The notes under the pieces were generated by a model that worked only from the letters and a program-made list of their open reading frames with translations, was not told the origin of the DNA and did not search any database. This document shows positions 1 through 10,132 of a DNA stretch of 33,009 bases, one piece after another. Numbering within the stretch: the stretch's first letter is position 1; each line of letters starts with the position of its first letter. The DNA comes from a virus: IMG/VR virus record IMGVR_UViG_3300035071_000100, positions 1-33,009 of that record; one strand, given 5' to 3'. The position numbers were made by a program, and so were the translations under genes.

Positions 1-32
1 ACGCGTTTGCGAAGATCGTCGGAAAGCGCCAT
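1..32 (-). CDS. IS630-type transposase, N-terminal fragment at the window edge
   Basis: The ATG at 32-30 on the minus strand opens a frame reading MALSDDLRKRV before the window ends. This is the characteristic opening of the helix-turn-helix domain of IS630-family transposases. A GGAGG Shine-Dalgarno sequence lies about 8 bases upstream of the ATG. Only ten or so codons are visible, so the family call rests on the N-terminal signature and the TA-bounded position; integrity of the gene is unknown. Confidence 0.5.
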   Translation of the reverse strand, partial: MALSDDLRKR

Positions 33-95
33 TCCTGCCGCCTCCTTCTCGCGGCAGAAATTATGAATCAGACTTCAGCCGATTCGGGAATCCTA
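1..95 (-). mobile_element. 5' end of an IS630-type insertion sequence, cut by the window edge
   Basis: Reading leftward, the element would begin just inside a TA dinucleotide at 94-95 with GGATTCCCGAATCGG. About 60 bases later comes a transposase start at 32. IS630/Tc1-mariner elements insert at TA and duplicate it, which fits this border. Only this end is visible, so the inverted repeat and the second TA cannot be checked. The element lies 43 bases beyond the stop of the Z1 gene and marks the left edge of the defence island. Confidence 0.5.
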
Positions 96-138
96 GACCG
101 ATTCAGAACGGTCGGAGCCCGCTCTAGATAGACCGCAG

Positions 139-2469
139 CTAGGTGGCAACCTTGGTGGCGAACACGCATGGCTCGGCGTCAGTGGGGGCGGCAAAAAGTG
201 GCCACCAGAACTTGTGCGCTGTCCAGCCCAGCTCCCGACCGCCCTCCTGCTGTAGCAGAATTAGCGCGGGCTTCGAGCGAGGCTCGCCTAGCACCTTCTT
301 GCGGAGCGCCGTGCCGAGGATCGAGCGGCCGGACTTGTCGCCTGAACCGGCTCGCGACAGCTTTCTGCCGGTCTCGGCGTAGATCAGGATCTTGCCGTCG
401 CCGTCCTTCGCGACGTCGGAGTAGTAATCGATTAGGCCGCGCATCGCGTCCCACTCGAACTCGACGGTATCGAACTCCATGCTTTTCGCGATGGCGTCGA
501 TGATCGCGATTGCCGTTTTGCGGTCGACTGCGACGAAGTCTCCGGTGTCACGCCACTCCGGCTTGATCAGGCGATCCAGATCGGCCTGGATCTTCGCCAT
601 GGTAGTGCCGCCCTTGGTCTGGAAGTCGCTGGGCAGCAGCATATCGTTGGGGGAGACGGCTACAACGTCGCTGAGCAGTACCTTATTGGGGGCGCAGGGG
701 CGCACCCGGCGCACGGCATCCGACTGGATAAACACAACTCCGGCATCGTGGGCGCCAGTCTCGAAGGCCTTCCTTAGTGAGCCCTCGAGTGTGTTGATGG
801 TGTAGAGCCGGTCATACACGGCCCGCGATGTATAGAAGCGAGTGACCGCCAGATCGCGACGGTCGCGATTGCCGTACATGCGGGAATGCTGGAGCACGGT
901 GTCGGCCTGCATCGTCTTCGGGTTGCGTCCATAGTAGAATGAGAGGAGGTTCGGGATGGTGATGCCACGATCGAGGATGTTGCCGCCCACCCAGATGTTG
1001 TAGGGCGTGCGCAGCTTGAGTTCTGCGTTGGTGTCCAGCAGGGCCATGACGTCGGTGTCCGAATTGACCTTCTCCACTGCCACGTCGTCGCTCTGCAGTG
1101 CATCGATGAAGGCGTCGAAGGCTTCCTCGCGAGGCGGCATCTTGCCCTTGTCGGCGAGGACTGACGTCTCTAGGTCCTCGAAAGCTGCGTCGAAGAGCGG
1201 ACGCAGTTGCGTCGGGTCGTTCTCGGCGGCACCGACGATCGCTTGGAATATCCAATCGATCACTTGGTCCTGCCATGCGTGTGCGGCGCGGGTGATGTCG
1301 TTGTGGATCACCATCGCGTATTTCTTCGCGCGCTCGCCCCCTTCCCGCTGCTGCCAGCGGCGCACACCCACAGCGACGATGAAAGTGATGATCGCCCGCC
1401 GCAATCCAGAGACGTTATCCGTCTCAAGCACGTTATTGGCGCTGATGCGCCGCTTGTCGGGACGGCGGAGAGCGTCTTGCTCCTGCTCGGCGACTTCGAC
1501 GATCAGCTTCGAGCGAGGATCGTCATCATCAAACTGACCAAAATAATCGTCGCCGCCGACATAGCCGGAGTGGATGGGGAGCAGCTTCGTGAACGCGGGG
1601 CGCTTCGGCTTGAACACGTAGTTCGTATTCGCCTCGTCGTAATCCTGCGGCTGGAGATACAGCGAGTAGGGGGTGGCCGTGACCTGCAGGAACGCTATGC
1701 CCTTTGTCATGTTGCGCAGCTGATCAATCTGATCGGCGATGGTGCCCTGGTTGACGTTGGCGTCGCCGCCCTTGCGTACGAAGCGGACGCTGGCGAGGTC
1801 GGCCTCGTCGTCCACGAGCAAGACCTTTCGATCGTGCAGGTCTTCGTGCTTCGTGATGAACTCGAGAAGGCGTTCGAGATTACGGGCCTGTTTCTTCGCG
1901 ACGACAACCACTTTTCTACGCAGCTCGCTACGGCGCAGAGTGCCCGGCAGGTTCATGATATCGACCACCAGGAACTCGTCGTCTTCGATGAACTCCGCGA
2001 AGTCGCCCTCAAGACGACGGACGGTCTGCGCTGAGAGCGTCTTGGTGCCCTTGGTCAGCACGATGGCCATGTCAAAGCCGCGATCGAAGGCTCGGGCGAT
2101 GACGCCCACGAATCCGCGGGTCTTGCCGGACTGGATTTTGCCGAGGAGCATGCCCGGCTTGTCGCCGGTGGTCGAGGCGCTCTCCAGCTCCTCGACGATT
2201 TCCTCGATACAGTTCGATAGCGCCTCATCGTCATTTCGGAAGCTCTTAAGACGAGGGTAGAAGGACGAAAATTCTTCCAGAGAGCCTAGCTTGCGGTTGT
2301 TGCGCATGAGCCAGGCGCGAATTTGAGTGCGTCGAAACACCGGGCCGGACGCGAGTTCCTTCAGCGGCTGCGGGAAATCGGACGAGCGCACCCGCCAGTT
2401 CGCAACCGCCTGCGTGCTGACGCCCGCCATGGTCGCGATTTCGTTGATGCCGACAAGATCATGCTCCAT
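139..2469 (-). CDS. HTH-Z1 domain ATPase, probable defence protein
   Basis: This 776-residue protein has an N-terminal helix-turn-helix (about residues 5-55). A P-loop ATPase follows, with Walker A GKIQSGKT (110-117), Walker B LLVDDEAD (217-224) and TATP (264-267). The Z1 core is at about 491-550, with VGGNILDRGITIP and DTVLQHSRMYG. Z1 proteins are helicase-like ATPases found repeatedly in phage-defence loci such as mzaABCDE; the mechanism is poorly known. The frame is open to 2598, but I chose the ATG at 2469 because AGGAG lies 7 bases upstream and a sigma70-like promoter (2501-2528) lies inside the longer version. The gene is divergent from the type I restriction operon. It may bind its own operator array through the HTH, but that is inference. 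No frameshift or missing motif is seen. Confidence 0.88.
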   Translation of the reverse strand: MEHDLVGINEIATMAGVSTQAVANWRVRSSDFPQPLKELASGPVFRRTQIRAWLMRNNRKLGSLEEFSSFYPRLKSFRNDDEALSNCIEEIVEELESASTTGDKPGMLLGKIQSGKTRGFVGVIARAFDRGFDMAIVLTKGTKTLSAQTVRRLEGDFAEFIEDDEFLVVDIMNLPGTLRRSELRRKVVVVAKKQARNLERLLEFITKHEDLHDRKVLLVDDEADLASVRFVRKGGDANVNQGTIADQIDQLRNMTKGIAFLQVTATPYSLYLQPQDYDEANTNYVFKPKRPAFTKLLPIHSGYVGGDDYFGQFDDDDPRSKLIVEVAEQEQDALRRPDKRRISANNVLETDNVSGLRRAIITFIVAVGVRRWQQREGGERAKKYAMVIHNDITRAAHAWQDQVIDWIFQAIVGAAENDPTQLRPLFDAAFEDLETSVLADKGKMPPREEAFDAFIDALQSDDVAVEKVNSDTDVMALLDTNAELKLRTPYNIWVGGNILDRGITIPNLLSFYYGRNPKTMQADTVLQHSRMYGNRDRRDLAVTRFYTSRAVYDRLYTINTLEGSLRKAFETGAHDAGVVFIQSDAVRRVRPCAPNKVLLSDVVAVSPNDMLLPSDFQTKGGTTMAKIQADLDRLIKPEWRDTGDFVAVDRKTAIAIIDAIAKSMEFDTVEFEWDAMRGLIDYYSDVAKDGDGKILIYAETGRKLSRAGSGDKSGRSILGTALRKKVLGEPRSKPALILLQQEGGRELGWTAHKFWWPLFAAPTDAEPCVFATKVAT

Positions 2470-2479
2470 AAATAACTCC

Positions 2480-2539
2480 TGTGAGCGATTGTCACAAGTG
2501 TGTATATCATTCACATCTATGGCGTCAACATCTGTGACG
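2480..2539. promoter_or_regulatory. three tandem 17-bp inverted repeats, probable operator array
   Basis: Three dyads share one geometry of 5-bp arms and a 7-bp spacer. They are TGTGAGCGATTGTCACA (2480-2496), TGTGTATATCATTCACA (2499-2515) and CGTCAACATCTGTGACG (2523-2539). The second has one arm mismatch; the others have perfect arms. The third covers the -35, the second covers the -10, and the first covers the start region up to the Shine-Dalgarno sequence. Such a layout would allow tight repression by a dimeric DNA-binding protein. The Z1 protein's own HTH is the nearest candidate regulator. The 7-bp spacer differs from the 6-bp spacer of a classical CRP site. The rest of the 2470-2767 divergent region shows no convincing promoter for hsdM. 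Confidence 0.6.
2501..2528 (-). promoter_or_regulatory. sigma70-like promoter of the HTH-Z1 gene
   Basis: On the minus strand, TTGACG (plus 2523-2528) and TATACA (plus 2501-2506) are separated by exactly 16 bases. Both are close to the TTGACA/TATAAT consensus. Transcription would begin near 2494 and give a short leader of about 25 bases before the ATG at 2469. The AGGAG ribosome site is at 2476-2480. Confidence 0.7.
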
Positions 2540-2767
2540 TTGTCGGTTAGCTTCGATTGGCTGGCCCTGACAGGAGGCTCACCGATAAAGGCAGCCAAGG
2601 TCAGCGGCCCCTTCTGACCGCATAGCCATGGGAAGCCGTCGGAGAGGACGCGTTCCTGCCCTTTCTAATTGTTAAGATTCAGATAGACCGCTCGATATTG
2701 AAGCCATAGCCGCGCATAATGAGGCATTGTCCGAATCAGAAATCTGGACGACTGGAGCGTGCGGCCA

Positions 2768-5455
2768 ATGGCCAAGTTGACCCTTGAAAAACTCGAACGC
2801 CATCTGTTCGCCGCAGCGGACATCCTCCGCGGTAAAATGGACGCGTCGGAGTTCAAGGAATACATTTTCGGCATCTTGTTTCTGAAGCGATGCTCGGACG
2901 TGTTCGTGCAGCAACGCGACAAGATTATTAAAGAGCAGCGCGCGCAGGGGCGCACCGAAGATGAGGCGCTCCAACGGGCCGATCATCCGTCTTCATATCA
3001 AAAAACATTCTTTGTTCCGACCGTTGCCCGATGGGGGCGGCTGCTGAACGACGTACATTCGAATGTCGCAAACGAGTTGAACAAGGCTCTGGCGGGCTTG
3101 GAAAACTCGAACCACCAGGCGCTGTCCGGTGTTCTCGGTCACATCAATTTCGCCCGTAAGGTCGGCGAATCTGAAATCCCCGACGAGAAGCTGCGGCGGC
3201 TCATCAGCCACTTCAACAAGTACCGGCTTCTGGACGATGATTTCGAGTTTCCGGACCTCCTCGGCGCTGCCTATGAGTATCTCATCAGCGAATTCGCTGA
3301 CTCGGCCGGCAAGAAGGCTGGCGAGTTCTACACCCCAAGAGGGGTCGTGCAGCTCATGGTGCGGATCCTCGACCCGCAGGGTGGCACGTCGCTCTACGAC
3401 CCGACCTGTGGCAGCGGCGGCATGCTGAACCAGGGGAACGAGCACGCCCTCCAGCACGGAGGGCCGCGGCTGCGCCTCTATGGGCAGGAAGACAACGGGG
3501 CTGTCTGGGCGATTTGCCGGATGAACCTGCTGCTACATGGCGTTCCCGACGCCGACATCCGGAATGGCGACACGCTGCTCGAACCGAAACACATCGAGGA
3601 TGGCCGCCTGATGCGCTTCGACCGGGTGATCGCCAATCCGCCTTTCAGCCAGAACTACACCAAGCGCGGCATCCAGTTCGGCGACCGCTTCCGCTTCGGC
3701 TGGTGCCCGACGACGGGCAAGAAGGCCGACCTGATGTTCGCGCAGCACATGCTGGCGAGCCTCAAGCAGAACGGAAAGATGGCGGTCGTGATGCCCCACG
3801 GCGTGCTGTTCCGCGGCGGGGAAGAGAAGAAGATCAGGATCGCGCTACTCAAGGACGACTGCATCGAGGCGGTCATCGGTCTGCCGCAGAATCTCTTCTA
3901 TGGAACCGGCATCCCGGCCTGTGTCCTGGTGATGCGCCATCCCGGCGGCAAGCCGGATGAGCGCAAGGGCAAGGTGCTGTTCATCAACGCCGACCGCGAA
4001 TATCGCGAAGGCCGTGCGCAGAACTTCATCGATCCGGAGCACATCGAGAAGGTTGTCAGCGCTTATGATGCGTTTGTCGACGTGCCTGGCTTCGCGGCCG
4101 TGCTCGACAACAAGGCCATCATTGAGGACGAAGCCGGAAACCTGAACATCCGTCGCTACGCCGACAGCAGCCCGCCGCCGGAACCCCATGACGTGCGGGC
4201 GCACCTTCATGGCGGTGTGCCAAAGCGCGAGATCGAAGCCATCCGCCCTCAGGCGATTGCGCAGGGCTTCGACGTTGGCACGCCGTTCTCCGACCGCGAT
4301 CCCGACTACGCCGAATTCGCGCCTACTGTGGCGAAGCGGGCCGACATCCGTGCATTGGTGGAAACGGATGCTGGCGTCGCCGGCCGGGCCGGAGAAATGC
4401 TAGGCGCCTTTGATACGTGGTGGGCTTCGGCGCAGACAGGGCTAGCTGATCTGCCAGAAACCAAGCGCCTCATGCCGCTGCGGCGGGAGCTGCTCGACAG
4501 TTTCGAGCCAGCCATGCTGCCGGTGGGCTGCGTCGATCGCTATGCGCTGATGGGCGCCATCGCGGGCTGGTGGGACGAAATCCGCTACGAGCTGCGCGTC
4601 ATCGTCGAGAACGGGTTCGCCGAGCTTGTCGACGGCTGGGTCGAGACGCTCCGCTCCGCGCTCGAAGACGAAGAGGCCGACGACGACGAGGACAGCGACG
4701 TCAAGAAGACCGTGAAGGTGACACTGGAGGAGCTGCTCGCGCATCCCTTCGTGCGGCACCGGATGGCCGACTATGTGACCCAACTCTCTGCGGCGCAGGC
4801 CGAGGTGGAGCGCATCAAGGCCGAGAAGGAAGCCTGGGAAACCGGCGACGGTGTCGATGGCGCCGAGGACTGGATGGACGAGGCCGAGGACGGCGCCACG
4901 CTGCCCAAAGTGCTGGAGAAGCGCCGCAAGGACCTGCGCGCCGAGATGGGCGAGGATGACAAGCGCCGCAAGGAGCTGGTGAAGACCACACCCGCCGGAA
5001 AGCCGTCCAAGGGCTCCATCGACTGGATGCGGGCGCAGGGCATGAACGTTCGGGAGGTCGAGGCCGAACTTGCCGACCTCAATCGCCGTCTCGCGCCGCT
5101 TGTCGACGAGGCGGAGACCATCGATGCCATGCTCGCCCCCTATGAAGTGATCAAGGAGGAGCTGAAGACGGCGCGCGCCACGCTGCGGCGGCTGAAAGCG
5201 GCTTTTGTCGAGCGGCTGACCGCAGCGCGGGCCGAACTCGATGACGACGATTGCCGCGAACTGGTGCTGACCATCGACCGTGAGCGGCTGTTCGACCGGC
5301 TGGAACGCGCTCGTGCGCGTCGGGTGGGCGTCCTGGTATCCTGCCTCCAGCGCCTCTCGGACAAGTATTGGGTCAGCCTCAAGAACATCGAAGGGCGAAG
5401 GGCTGATGCAACGTCGCTGCTGGATGGATACCTGAAGGAGCTCGGGTATGCCTGA
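2768..5455 (+). CDS. hsdM: type I restriction-modification DNA methyltransferase subunit HsdM, long form
   Basis: HsdM transfers a methyl group from S-adenosylmethionine to adenine in the site chosen by HsdS, and it is also needed in the restriction complex. In this 895-residue protein the N-terminal HsdM domain is followed by the SAM motif DPTCGSGGM (211-219) and the catalytic NPPF (290-293) of N6-adenine methyltransferases. HsdM proteins are commonly about 500-550 residues. Here about 350 more follow: an acidic stretch (around 640-655), then highly charged, probably coiled-coil sequence. I prefer the ATG at 2768 because GGAG at 2754-2757 is 10 bases away; the upstream in-frame GTG at 2759 is only one base from it. 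The end overlaps hsdS by 8 bases, implying coupled translation. Confidence 0.95.
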
Positions 5456-6752
5456 AGCCTTTGATCGCGATCTCCCCTTGGGTGCACTCATCAAGGAAAG
5501 TTTTGCAGGCGAATGGGGGCTGGAAACGCCGCAGCTCGGGTTCGTTCGCTCGCGCGTCGTCCGATCGACGGAAATCGACGATGATGGCAGCGTCGCGCTG
5601 ACGACAGCCGTGGAGCGCTTCATTCCGTCTGAAAAGGTTGCCGCAAAAGGCCTTCGGGACGGAGATATTGTAATCGAGTCAGCTGGTGGTTCTCCAGCGC
5701 GACCCGTCGGCCGGCCCGCAATATTGCGCGTGGATGATTATTCATCGCCTATTATGTCATCGAACTTTGTTAGAACACTCAGGTTCGACACAGAGAAGAT
5801 TACGCAAAATTTCGCGATTCATGCTCTCCGCCGCCTTTACGCTCAGCCGCGCTTTGGCGTCACTCAGCAGAAGACCACCGGTATCATCAACTTGAACTTT
5901 GGTGAGTTCCAAAAGCTTCGGATTTGGGTGCCAGGAACTGTCGATCTTCAGGCATTGATCGCGGACATCCTCGATGCCGTCGATGATGCGGTCCTTGAAG
6001 CCGATGCACTGTTCGAGAAACTGCGGACAGTTCGCGTCGGCATGATCGACGACTTGCTCACGCGTGGCGTGGCAGATGACGGCTCACCCCGCGTGTCATC
6101 TGCGCTAGTCAAGACAATGGTCGGCCCGCGCCCGGGGACATGGAAAGTCGCGAACTTGGGCCGCTTCGTCGTCGGCGCGGAGTATGGCACCAACCTCTCC
6201 TTGGGTGACAGCAGCGCGGGCATCCCCGTCCTGCGGATGAACAACATCCAGGACGGTGAGTTTGATCTGTCCGATCTGAAATATGCGCCGGCTCATGCGG
6301 TCGAGCGATTCCGGGTGCAGCGCGACGATGTGCTGTTCAACCGCACCAACAGCTGGGAGCATGTGGGCAAGGCCGCGATCTGGCGGCACGACGAACCTGG
6401 CCCTGCCTTCGCGTCCTATCTCGTGCGCCTTCACTGCGGCGACGAACTGCTGCCCGAGTTCCTTCACCTCTGGCTGAATTGGGCGCCGGTCCAGCGCGCC
6501 ATCCGGCAGTTCGCCACGCCGGGCGTCCAGCAAGTCAACATCAATCCGACCAACTTGCGGCGGGCCTTGATTGCGGTGCCGGACACCTTGGACGAACAAC
6601 GCGCCATCATCGAACGCGTGAATGGTGTCTCCTCGGCCACTGAGGATCACCGTCGTGAGCGCGCCAAGCTGGCGTCCCTTCGCGAAGGGTTGCGCGATGA
6701 CCTCCTCAGTGGCCGCAAGCCTGTTGCCGCCATTCGGGAGGCGGCCGAATGA
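5448..6752 (+). CDS. hsdS: type I restriction-modification specificity subunit HsdS
   Basis: HsdS sets the bipartite DNA target of the complex with two target-recognition domains (TRDs) held apart by conserved helices. In this 434-residue protein TRD1 covers about residues 10-160. A helical spacer follows at about 165-205 with [19 protein letters not shown]2 covers about 215-375 and the second helical repeat ([11 protein letters not shown]) starts near 380. The length is normal for the family. DNA encoding TRD1 (roughly 5620-5950) is visibly richer in A and T than that for TRD2, suggesting TRD1 was exchanged by recombination. The recognition sequence cannot be read from sequence alone. The gene overlaps hsdM by 8 bases and hsdR by 4 (ATGA). 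Confidence 0.93.
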
Positions 6753-9700
6753 CCCAGCTGGACCGCCTGGATGAGCTCAATGTCGTCGAACGTCCGCTGC
6801 TGCGCCAACTGGGCGCGATGGGCTGGCGCCATGTCGAGGGCGCCGACGAAGACCCGTCCAGCGGCCGCAAGGACTATCATCTGCTCGGCCGTACCGATTT
6901 TCAGCAGACGCTGCTGCGCGACCGGCTTGAGGCCGCGCTGCGCCGCCTGAACCGCAACGACGATGGTTCCGAATGGCTGGATGACCGCCGTATCACCCAG
7001 GCGATCTCGCAGCTCGAGCGGCCGACCGCGAAGGACTTCATCGCGATCAACGAGGAGCTGCACGACAAGATCGTGCGTGGTGTGAATGTCTCCGGCCCCG
7101 ACGGCGAGCACGAGCGCCGCGTGCGCTTCGTCGGGTTTGAGCCGGGCGACGAGAACGAGTTCATCGCGGTGAACCAGTTCCGCGTCGATCCGCCGGGCGC
7201 CAGTGGTGTGTCCGGCTTTATCGTGCCGGACGTCGTGCTCTTCGTGAACGGCCTGCCATTGGTGGTGATCGAGGCCAAGAGTCCCGCCGTCACTGACCCC
7301 ATCGCCACCGCCATCGACCAGATGCGCCGCTATGCCAATCGCCGCATTCCCGAGAAGAATGAGGGCGCGGAGCGGCTGTTCTGGACGAACCAGCTTCTGG
7401 TCGCCACCGACTATTACGACGCGCGTGTCGGCTCCGTCACGGCCCGGCCTGACGATTTCCTGCCTTGGCGCTCGGTCAAGCCGATCGGCATCGAGCATAC
7501 GCGCGCCGCCAATGACGAGGTGTGCCGCGAGATCGGCAAGGCGCCCGGCACCGAATTGGTCCAGCAGGAGGTGCTCGCCGCCGGTCTTCTGCGGCCGGCA
7601 TACCTGCTCGACGCGATGCGCTCGTTCACTGTCTTCATGACTACGGACGATGGCGTGCGGATCAAGGTCGTGCCGCGCTATCAGCAATTCCGGTCGGTCC
7701 ACATCGCGCTTAACCGGCTGCGCGAAGGCAAGACCCGCCGCCAGGACGGCATGACGGATCGTCGGGGCGGCATCATCTGGCACACGCAAGGCTCGGGGAA
7801 GAGCCTGACCATGGTGTTCCTGGTCAAGAAACTGCGGACAGTCCCCGAGCTTCGGCGGTTCAAGGTGGTCGTGGTCACGGACCGGACCGATCTCGAGGAC
7901 CAGCTGTCGAAGACCGCGAAGCTCGCCGGTCAGGTCATGCGCGTGGCGCGAAACGCCGATGGCGCGAAAGCGGATCTGGGCCGCCAGGAACCCGACCTGG
8001 TGTTCGTGATGATCCAGAAGCTGCAAGAGCGGAATGGCGGTGGCGACGAGCAGGAGATCGTGTTCGCTGCCGAGAATGACGAGCGCCAGGTTGCGGAGAG
8101 TGATGCGCTGCTCCCCGCCAAGCCCGATCAGTTGCGGTCGGGCAAGTTGGTTGCGAAGATCGGCGAGCGACAGGCGTTCCCCGTCTTGAACGAGAGCGAG
8201 GACGTCCTCGTCCTCATCGATGAGGCGCACCGCTCGCATACGAGCGGGCTGCACCAGAACCTTCTGGACGCTCTGCCGAACGCTGCACGGATCGGGTTCA
8301 CCGGAACCCCGATCGAGGAGAAGAGCAAGAAGAAGACACGGGAGATTTTCGGCACCTACATCGACCGTTACCTCCTGCGGGACGCCGAGGCTGACGGCGC
8401 GATCGTGAAGATCCTCTACGAGGGGCGTGAACTGAAAGCCGATGTGACCGACAAGGGAACGTTGGATGGACTGTTCGATGCCACCTTTGCCGGGAAGTCT
8501 TCCGAGGAGCGGGAGGCGATCAAGGATCGCTATGCAACACGTGCGCGCGTTCTGAATGCCGCCGACCCGCTGAATGCCAAGGCGATTGACGTGCTCCGGC
8601 ACTACATCGTTAACATCCTTCCCAACGATTTGAAGGCGCAGCTCGTCGCCTCCAGCCGGGAACTAGCAGTACAGTACGTCGACGCGTTGAATAACGCCCG
8701 CGACGAGATTGTTGCCGCCATCGAAGGCGCTGCGGACATCTTGAAGGATATCGACCCGGAAGATGCTCAAGATGCGGGCGGCGACGTGGCGTTCCTTGCC
8801 ACCGCGCTGCCATACCTCGACGCGATCAAATCCCTGGAATTCGCGGCCGTTATCTCTGTGGACCACAATGACCTGCCTCATCTGAAAGCGTGGGGCGGCA
8901 CGACAGAGATCAAGCAGCGGATCGAGCGGTTCAAGAAGCCGCTTTCCCGGGATGCTCTCGCAATGCTGGTGGTAAAGAGCAAGCTGCTCACTGGCTTCGA
9001 CGCCAAAGTCGAACAGGCGATGTATCTCGACCGCGCCATCTCGGGCGCCGAACTGCTCCAGGCGATCGCCCGCACCAATCGCACAGCCGGGGAAGCCAAG
9101 CGGTTTGGCATTATCGTGGATTACTACGGCGTTGGAAAGAATCTGGCAGACGCGTTGGCGCTTTATGACGCCGAGGATCAGAGCGATTTGACCGGTGGGA
9201 TTGGCAAGCCAGAAGAACTGCTGCCTGAGCTTCGCCAAGCCCGTGATGCAGTGATCAAGCACTTTGCCGATGTCGGCATAACACTCGGAACCGATCTGCA
9301 AGCATATGTCGATGCTTGCATTGGAACGCTCAAGGACCAGAAGTTTCGAGCGCAGTTCCTAGTTCTTGTGAAAAGCCTCATCGGTCTGTTCGACACGCTG
9401 ATGCCCCGCCCAGAGGCAAGGCCGTTTACCAAGGACGTGAAGATTTTCGCATTTATCGCCAAAGCTGCTGCGAACCTCTACCGGGACGGCACGCTTGACG
9501 TACGTGGCGTGGCGCACAAAGTTCAAGCCATGCTTGATGCCTTCATCCAGGCGCATGGCATCGATCCCAAAATTCCGCCCATCGAGATCCTCGATCCAAA
9601 CTTTGCAGCGGAGGTTTCGCGCAAGAAGACCGATCGTGCCAAGGCGGCCGAGATGGAAAATGCTCTACGTCACCATATTTCGATTTCGTTCGAAAAGGAC

Positions 9701-10132
9701 CCGACGAAGTTCAAGAGCCTGAGCGAGAGGCTTGAAGGCATACTGACTGCCCATCAACAAGACTGGAACGAGATCGCGAGGCAGCTTCAGAAGCTTATCG
9801 ACGAGGCTTTGGCGGCATCATCCGGGTCAGCCGTGTATCACGCGCTCGATCCTTACACGGAGGGGCCGATCTTTGGCATTCTCCGAATGCGATACGGGAA
9901 TGGCGACCGGGACACCGAGCTCGCGGAACTGGCTTCGGAAATCGTTCGGCAGGTGCGGAAGGAGACGGTTGTAGCAGGGTTTTGGGACAATCCAGTCGGC
10001 CAGGAGGAAGCGAGGCGGTGGGTTTTCCGCCAACTCGACAGCAGCAACCTGTTCCCATTCACGGAGCTGGACGCAATTGCGGCTGATTGCATGGGGGTCG
10101 CGCGGGCAAACCGCGCGGCGTTCGCCTCATGA
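6749..10132 (+). CDS. hsdR: type I restriction endonuclease subunit HsdR
   Basis: HsdR translocates DNA using ATP and cleaves at a distance from the unmethylated site. In this 1127-residue protein the N-terminal PD-(D/E)xK nuclease is visible as PD (160-161) and VIEAK (173-177). The SF2 motor follows with Walker A HTQGSGKS (345-352), DEAH (491-494) and TGTP (518-521). A helical C-terminal region for binding the HsdM/HsdS core completes the protein. All catalytic motifs are intact and the length is typical, so the enzyme is predicted to be active. It starts with an ATGA overlap on hsdS and ends with an ATGA overlap on the metallopeptidase gene, so four genes appear to be one transcript. Confidence 0.96.
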   Translation: MTQLDRLDELNVVERPLLRQLGAMGWRHVEGADEDPSSGRKDYHLLGRTDFQQTLLRDRLEAALRRLNRNDDGSEWLDDRRITQAISQLERPTAKDFIAINEELHDKIVRGVNVSGPDGEHERRVRFVGFEPGDENEFIAVNQFRVDPPGASGVSGFIVPDVVLFVNGLPLVVIEAKSPAVTDPIATAIDQMRRYANRRIPEKNEGAERLFWTNQLLVATDYYDARVGSVTARPDDFLPWRSVKPIGIEHTRAANDEVCREIGKAPGTELVQQEVLAAGLLRPAYLLDAMRSFTVFMTTDDGVRIKVVPRYQQFRSVHIALNRLREGKTRRQDGMTDRRGGIIWHTQGSGKSLTMVFLVKKLRTVPELRRFKVVVVTDRTDLEDQLSKTAKLAGQVMRVARNADGAKADLGRQEPDLVFVMIQKLQERNGGGDEQEIVFAAENDERQVAESDALLPAKPDQLRSGKLVAKIGERQAFPVLNESEDVLVLIDEAHRSHTSGLHQNLLDALPNAARIGFTGTPIEEKSKKKTREIFGTYIDRYLLRDAEADGAIVKILYEGRELKADVTDKGTLDGLFDATFAGKSSEEREAIKDRYATRARVLNAADPLNAKAIDVLRHYIVNILPNDLKAQLVASSRELAVQYVDALNNARDEIVAAIEGAADILKDIDPEDAQDAGGDVAFLATALPYLDAIKSLEFAAVISVDHNDLPHLKAWGGTTEIKQRIERFKKPLSRDALAMLVVKSKLLTGFDAKVEQAMYLDRAISGAELLQAIARTNRTAGEAKRFGIIVDYYGVGKNLADALALYDAEDQSDLTGGIGKPEELLPELRQARDAVIKHFADVGITLGTDLQAYVDACIGTLKDQKFRAQFLVLVKSLIGLFDTLMPRPEARPFTKDVKIFAFIAKAAANLYRDGTLDVRGVAHKVQAMLDAFIQAHGIDPKIPPIEILDPNFAAEVSRKKTDRAKAAEMENALRHHISISFEKDPTKFKSLSERLEGILTAHQQDWNEIARQLQKLIDEALAASSGSAVYHALDPYTEGPIFGILRMRYGNGDRDTELAELASEIVRQVRKETVVAGFWDNPVGQEEARRWVFRQLDSSNLFPFTELDAIAADCMGVARANRAAFAS

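Follow-up and report, generated by a model that had tools for sequence, protein, structure and literature searches.

The HTH-Z1 protein encoded on a virus record of 33,009 bases (the whole stretch analysed, hereafter the window) very probably represses its own gene through two 17-bp palindromes, sites 1 and 2, at its own promoter. Own-promoter repression is the most likely form of control because these two sites would cover the -10 hexamer and the transcript start. In the sequences that we compared, the motif, its place at the promoter, its co-occurrence with the HTH regardless of the C-terminal part of the protein, and the correspondence between motif and recognition helix could all be established.

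Results

The window carries phage tail and head genes at about 12.9-31.5 kb, and its HTH-Z1 gene is divergent from hsdM (Table 1). The initial annotation had described three inverted repeats of identical geometry over the HTH-Z1 promoter, and both this geometry and the positions were as stated, with centres 19 bp (sites 1 and 2) and 24 bp (sites 2 and 3) apart. Their proposed coincidence with the -35, the -10 and the start/Shine-Dalgarno region also stood when the promoter was read by eye, for sites 3, 2 and 1, respectively. On the gene strand, the two inferred hexamers are separated by a 16-bp spacer, and site 1 spans about +1 to the Shine-Dalgarno sequence AGGAG upstream of the ATG. The TATACA hexamer was absent from the list of the promoter scanner; the TTGAC of the -35 was kept in each of the 10 Z1 loci of the initial comparison and also in L046 and L049.

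Table 1 Features of the HTH-Z1 gene and its promoter region in the window.
Feature	Position	Strand	Details	Basis
HTH-Z1 gene	139..2469	-	776 aa; ATG at 2469; Pfam Z1; PADLOC Helicase_II 2.6e-59	translation
HTH domain coding part	2275..2469	-		alignments, AlphaFold2 model, PDB neighbours
N-terminal winged HTH of HTH-Z1	residues about 5-57
Z1 domain of HTH-Z1	residues 356-571		Pfam PF10593, E 5.9e-23
Site 1, candidate operator	2480..2496		TGTGAGCGATTGTCACA; centre 2488, arms 5/5	ParA-only matrix; conserved in homologues
Site 2, candidate operator	2499..2515		TGTGTATATCATTCACA (gene strand TGTGAATGATATACACA); centre 2507, arms 4/5	ParA-only matrix; conserved in homologues
-10 hexamer, inferred	2502..2507	-	TATACA; inside site 2	by eye from sequence
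-35 hexamer, inferred	2522..2527	-	TTGACG; under site 3	by eye from sequence
Site 3, third dyad over -35	2523..2539		CGTCAACATCTGTGACG; centre 2531, arms 5/5	kept in nearest relatives
hsdMSR type I restriction locus	2759-10132

Dyad symmetry alone was rejected as evidence, being at chance level by window counts: of 5-7-5 dyads, 69 perfect and 788 near-perfect ones (at least 4/5) were counted across the window, and comparable clusters of three dyads were found elsewhere in it when the spacer was left free. The true unit exceeds 5+7+5: its arms are 7 bp each and enclose a 3-bp centre, TGTGWAC-NNN-GTWCACA.

Through a scan of genome contigs, we obtained nine relatives of HTH-Z1. Eight of these keep the HTH and carry similar palindromes in the same place; the ninth, a 68%-identical gene from Pandoraea (L009), begins only past the HTH and lacks them. 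A plasmid search revealed the HTH alone, fused to a ParA-type ATPase, in Methylocystis and Rhizobium plasmids (76% and 63% identical, respectively), and the promoters of these HTH-ParA genes bear 17-mers of the same type. Further ParA fusions and one further Z1 gene came from genome and viral scans. In a comparison of upstream regions, which the initial annotation had suggested as a check for homologous HTH-Z1 genes, TGTGWAC-N3-GTWCACA-like 17-mers lie at the promoters of 13 HTH-Z1 genes and likewise of 20 HTH-ParA genes, usually two each; L005, L008, L027 and L026 have one good site and no second.

The HTH-ParA loci include L012, L013, L023-L025, L028-L037, L043, L044, L048 and L050, several of them on phage contigs, and mostly have two operators spaced 22-23 bp start to start, the spacing at Z1 genes being 18-19 bp. 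A viral scan with the whole HTH-Z1 protein gave no homologue, and none of the phage GenBank records offered a homologue of the HTH-Z1 promoter that could be used. The viral scan with the HTH alignment recovered 14 loci, among them L038-L040, distant HTH proteins of short length that lack these sites. A part of the Z1 gene (window 1856-2172) is 74% identical to 5865-6181 of MT837621.1, a 6.5-kb human-faecal phage record (H88). On a Rhodococcus plasmid (L014), an N-6 DNA methylase (6001-8157) carries a 51%-identical HTH at its head and has an NYN gene adjoining upstream, and the palindrome CGTTAACCAAGTTAACA lies at 5366-5382, about 79 bp before the NYN gene; this actinobacterial HTH-N6-methylase locus yielded a weak candidate palindrome with a score of 9.9. 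Similar HTHs occur at methylases on other actinobacterial plasmids.

The first set comprised 10 Z1 and 16 ParA loci, and the later-found set seven loci (L043, L044 and L046-L050). As sites in the first set were chosen with a palindrome-like seed, the weight lies with the cross-class test together with the controls that lack the HTH and the seven loci found later. For the cross-class test, a matrix was built from 29 ParA-promoter sites with zero Z1 data, and its top match at each Z1 locus was the Z1 promoter. Over the 33-kb window, this ParA matrix scored site 2 best (18.2) and site 1 second (13.5), the next place reaching 6.6. The highest score among 108,586 background positions in the 10 Z1 loci was 7.2, none of them attaining 18.2 or 13.5, and for the base composition of the window these window scores have per-position chances of 1.4e-6 and 5e-8. 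In the reverse test, the top match of the Z1 matrix was the promoter in 16/16 ParA loci, and in all seven later loci the two best sites lay immediately upstream of the gene. The HTH-less Z1 genes (L009 and five distant ones) had no site from -250 to +20 (best score 0.3), while a matrix match of 11.9 in the Nostoc HTH-less control fell within coding sequence, not upstream. The conserved candidate operator thus co-occurs with the HTH, as would be expected of an own-promoter operator.

The single array of three operators that had been proposed holds for sites 1 and 2, which match the operator derived from homologues, and fails for site 3, which scored -3.1 with the ParA matrix (best background 7.2) and 3.7 with the Z1 matrix; a third operator of the same kind is unsupported by these scores. 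The GTCAC half of site 3 is kept in the window and L003-L006, with GTAAC in L011, and because of its retention in the nearest relatives site 3 may be a weak or different site.

In each of the eight HTH-Z1 host genomes (8/8), the HTH is present once, as part of HTH-Z1. The recognition helix comprises residues 19-28, and residue 23 is Ala in the window HTH-Z1. We observed that Ala or Ser at residue 23 goes with half-sites that have A at position 5 (TGTGA), and Thr or Val with half-sites without A at that position, in 26/26 loci first and then in 7/7 loci found after the rule was set (33/33 in total). The residue-23/base-5 match involves four changes on a poorly resolved tree, with one independent pair on well-supported branches, and in view of this tree and the few independent events the match is taken as support, not proof. 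The N-terminal HTH of the Z1 protein, which the initial annotation had named as the possible ligand, is well supported as the ligand of sites 1 and 2, because the same HTH and operators recur on ParA, residue 23 matches base 5, HTH and operators are jointly absent from the HTH-less controls, and the HTH is present in a single copy per genome.

An AlphaFold2 model of the HTH domain was confident (pLDDT 88) and placed residue 23 inside helix 19-28. Its elements (H8-15, H19-28, E37-39, E42-46 and H47-57) form an HTH followed by a beta-hairpin wing and a helix, as in MerR/BldC/excisionase winged HTHs. The structural neighbours in the PDB, at a modest Z of about 5.5-6.6, were BldC, RacA, MerR-family proteins and the excisionase RdfS, all of them DNA-binding winged HTHs. 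Sequence searches of Pfam and PDB with the HTH gave weak matches and nothing stronger, and the prediction for full-length HTH-Z1 was poor (pLDDT 58), too low for use. The Z1 domain passes the Pfam gathering cut-off (82.1 bits vs 25). Against the NCBIfam equivalog MzaC, the protein reached 84.7 bits, far below the cut-off of 1500, and it falls outside type Ia ParA, as it carries Z1, not ParA; the ParA fusions are other genes.

The HTH-Z1 gene of the window is flanked by hsdMSR on one side and by the contig end on the other. In relatives, the neighbours of the Z1 gene are an m5C methylase, a type II nuclease (REase_II, DUF4928 or GIY-YIG) and/or Vsr, not hsdMSR, and such genes adjoin it in L004, L008, L010 and L053; the hsdMSR neighbour is therefore probably incidental, and the dyad sites probably serve the Z1 gene. 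Control of hsdM by the sites was rejected, the hsdM start being more than 200 bp off and no hsdM relative being present in any operator-bearing relative locus within the stretch fetched. A sigma-70-like promoter, TCGATA-17-CATAAT (+ strand, 2692-2720), suits hsdM and is well separate from the operators. The contig stops just past the Z1 gene (window 1-138), where any methylase, nuclease or Vsr partner would be out of view; an ORF starting MALSDDLRKR, which we take to be possibly a transposase, runs off the contig end there.

Discussion

From these comparisons, we infer that HTH-Z1 dimerises, binds its operators and exerts a repressive effect. In the proposed mechanism, its winged HTH of MerR/BldC/excisionase type, most likely dimeric, would bind two TGTGWAC-N3-GTWCACA-type palindromes. 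Occupation of site 2 would cover the -10 hexamer and occupation of site 1 the stretch from the transcript start up to the Shine-Dalgarno sequence, excluding RNA polymerase and keeping the level of the restriction-associated Z1 ATPase low. The 19-bp centre distance, about two helical turns, would let the two dimers sit on approximately the same side of the double helix. The initial annotation had gone further, holding that a potentially toxic gene is kept tightly off until needed; neither part found support in our analysis, as self-repression would give a limited level and an inducing signal was not found, and nothing in it spoke for a toxic product.

Other readings of the same sites have to be weighed against self-repression. 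Instead of the Z1 protein, their ligand might be a CRP/FNR-type regulator of the host (TGTGA...TCACA), given the likeness of the outer arms TGTGA/TCACA to CRP half-sites. However, CRP sites have a spacer of 6 whereas the spacer here is 7, the sites accompany the HTH on ParA as well as Z1 genes but are absent from HTH-less Z1 genes, and half-site base 5 tracks HTH residue 23, all of which makes such a regulator very improbable. It is also unlikely, if less so, that the HTH binds and activates, or exerts two-way (homeostatic) control, in the manner of certain C proteins and MerR-family members. A protein bound to the operators would sit over the -10 and +1, a position that obstructs polymerase, and MerR-activated promoters have a long -35/-10 spacer of 19-20 bp, not 16 bp as here; this reading draws instead on the HTH fold, which falls in the MerR/BldC group with its many activators, and on the third dyad at the -35, which could serve as an activating site.

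That site 1 is a leader RNA hairpin (an attenuator or a Shine-Dalgarno mask) and not a DNA operator deserves hardly any credence: although a scanner flagged 2498-2478 as terminator-like, site 2, with the same motif, lies over the -10 and is untranscribed, and the half-sites track a protein residue. Self-repression by HTH-Z1 could be extended by making the Z1 ATPase its own sensor, so that engagement of foreign DNA or of damaged DNA, or else an altered nucleotide state, would pull HTH-Z1 off the operators and lift repression. We regard this extension as speculative and rather unlikely; if it were true, one protein would both detect attack and raise its own gene, with a module interchangeable with that of ParA.

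With self-repression, Z1 genes would gain a concrete, testable control circuit. A literature search covering a minority of subscription journals returned no paper on Z1-gene operators or on Z1 regulation, in agreement with the initial annotation, which knew of no such operator. The HTH and its operators would move as one module, attached either to a Z1 protein or to a ParA ATPase, and could pass between an enzyme linked to restriction and an ATPase of plasmid/phage partition; this looks like a portable self-control module common to a restriction-associated gene and DNA-segregation genes. The residue-23/base-5 rule is a simple candidate specificity switch in MerR/BldC-type HTHs.

Among known systems, the Z1 proteins of RM loci and MzaC (NF041933, PADLOC Helicase_II) share the Z1 domain, and the partners of the relatives are likewise an m5C MTase, a nuclease and Vsr; by contrast, the six HTH-less Z1 genes examined are without such an operator upstream. 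Self-repressing type II methyltransferases such as M.EcoRII are restriction-system enzymes in which an N-terminal HTH shuts down the enzyme's own gene, but they are methyltransferases, not Z1 ATPases, and the likeness leaves the operators aside. The nearest known designs are RptR and type Ia ParA. RptR, from type I RM defence islands, is an autorepressor with three palindromes over the -10 of a restriction-linked operon (PMC12255303). It shares with HTH-Z1 the repeated palindromes over the -10 of a restriction-linked promoter, along with the autorepression proposed here, whereas it is a small regulator in its own right, whose palindrome, TAGCTA, has 6 bp, and the HTH of HTH-Z1 is part of the effector. 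Type Ia ParA proteins (P1 ParA, F SopA) repress their own promoter via inverted repeats around the -35/-10, on which several dimers assemble (PMC9178275, PMC8465637). To call the control of HTH-Z1 a distinct mode, as had been proposed, is therefore too strong: in both cases an ATPase with an N-terminal winged HTH would repress its own promoter in the same general way, although the F operators are hexamers 28 bp apart, in place of the short 17-bp palindromes here, and the effector in the window is a Z1 protein, not ParA.
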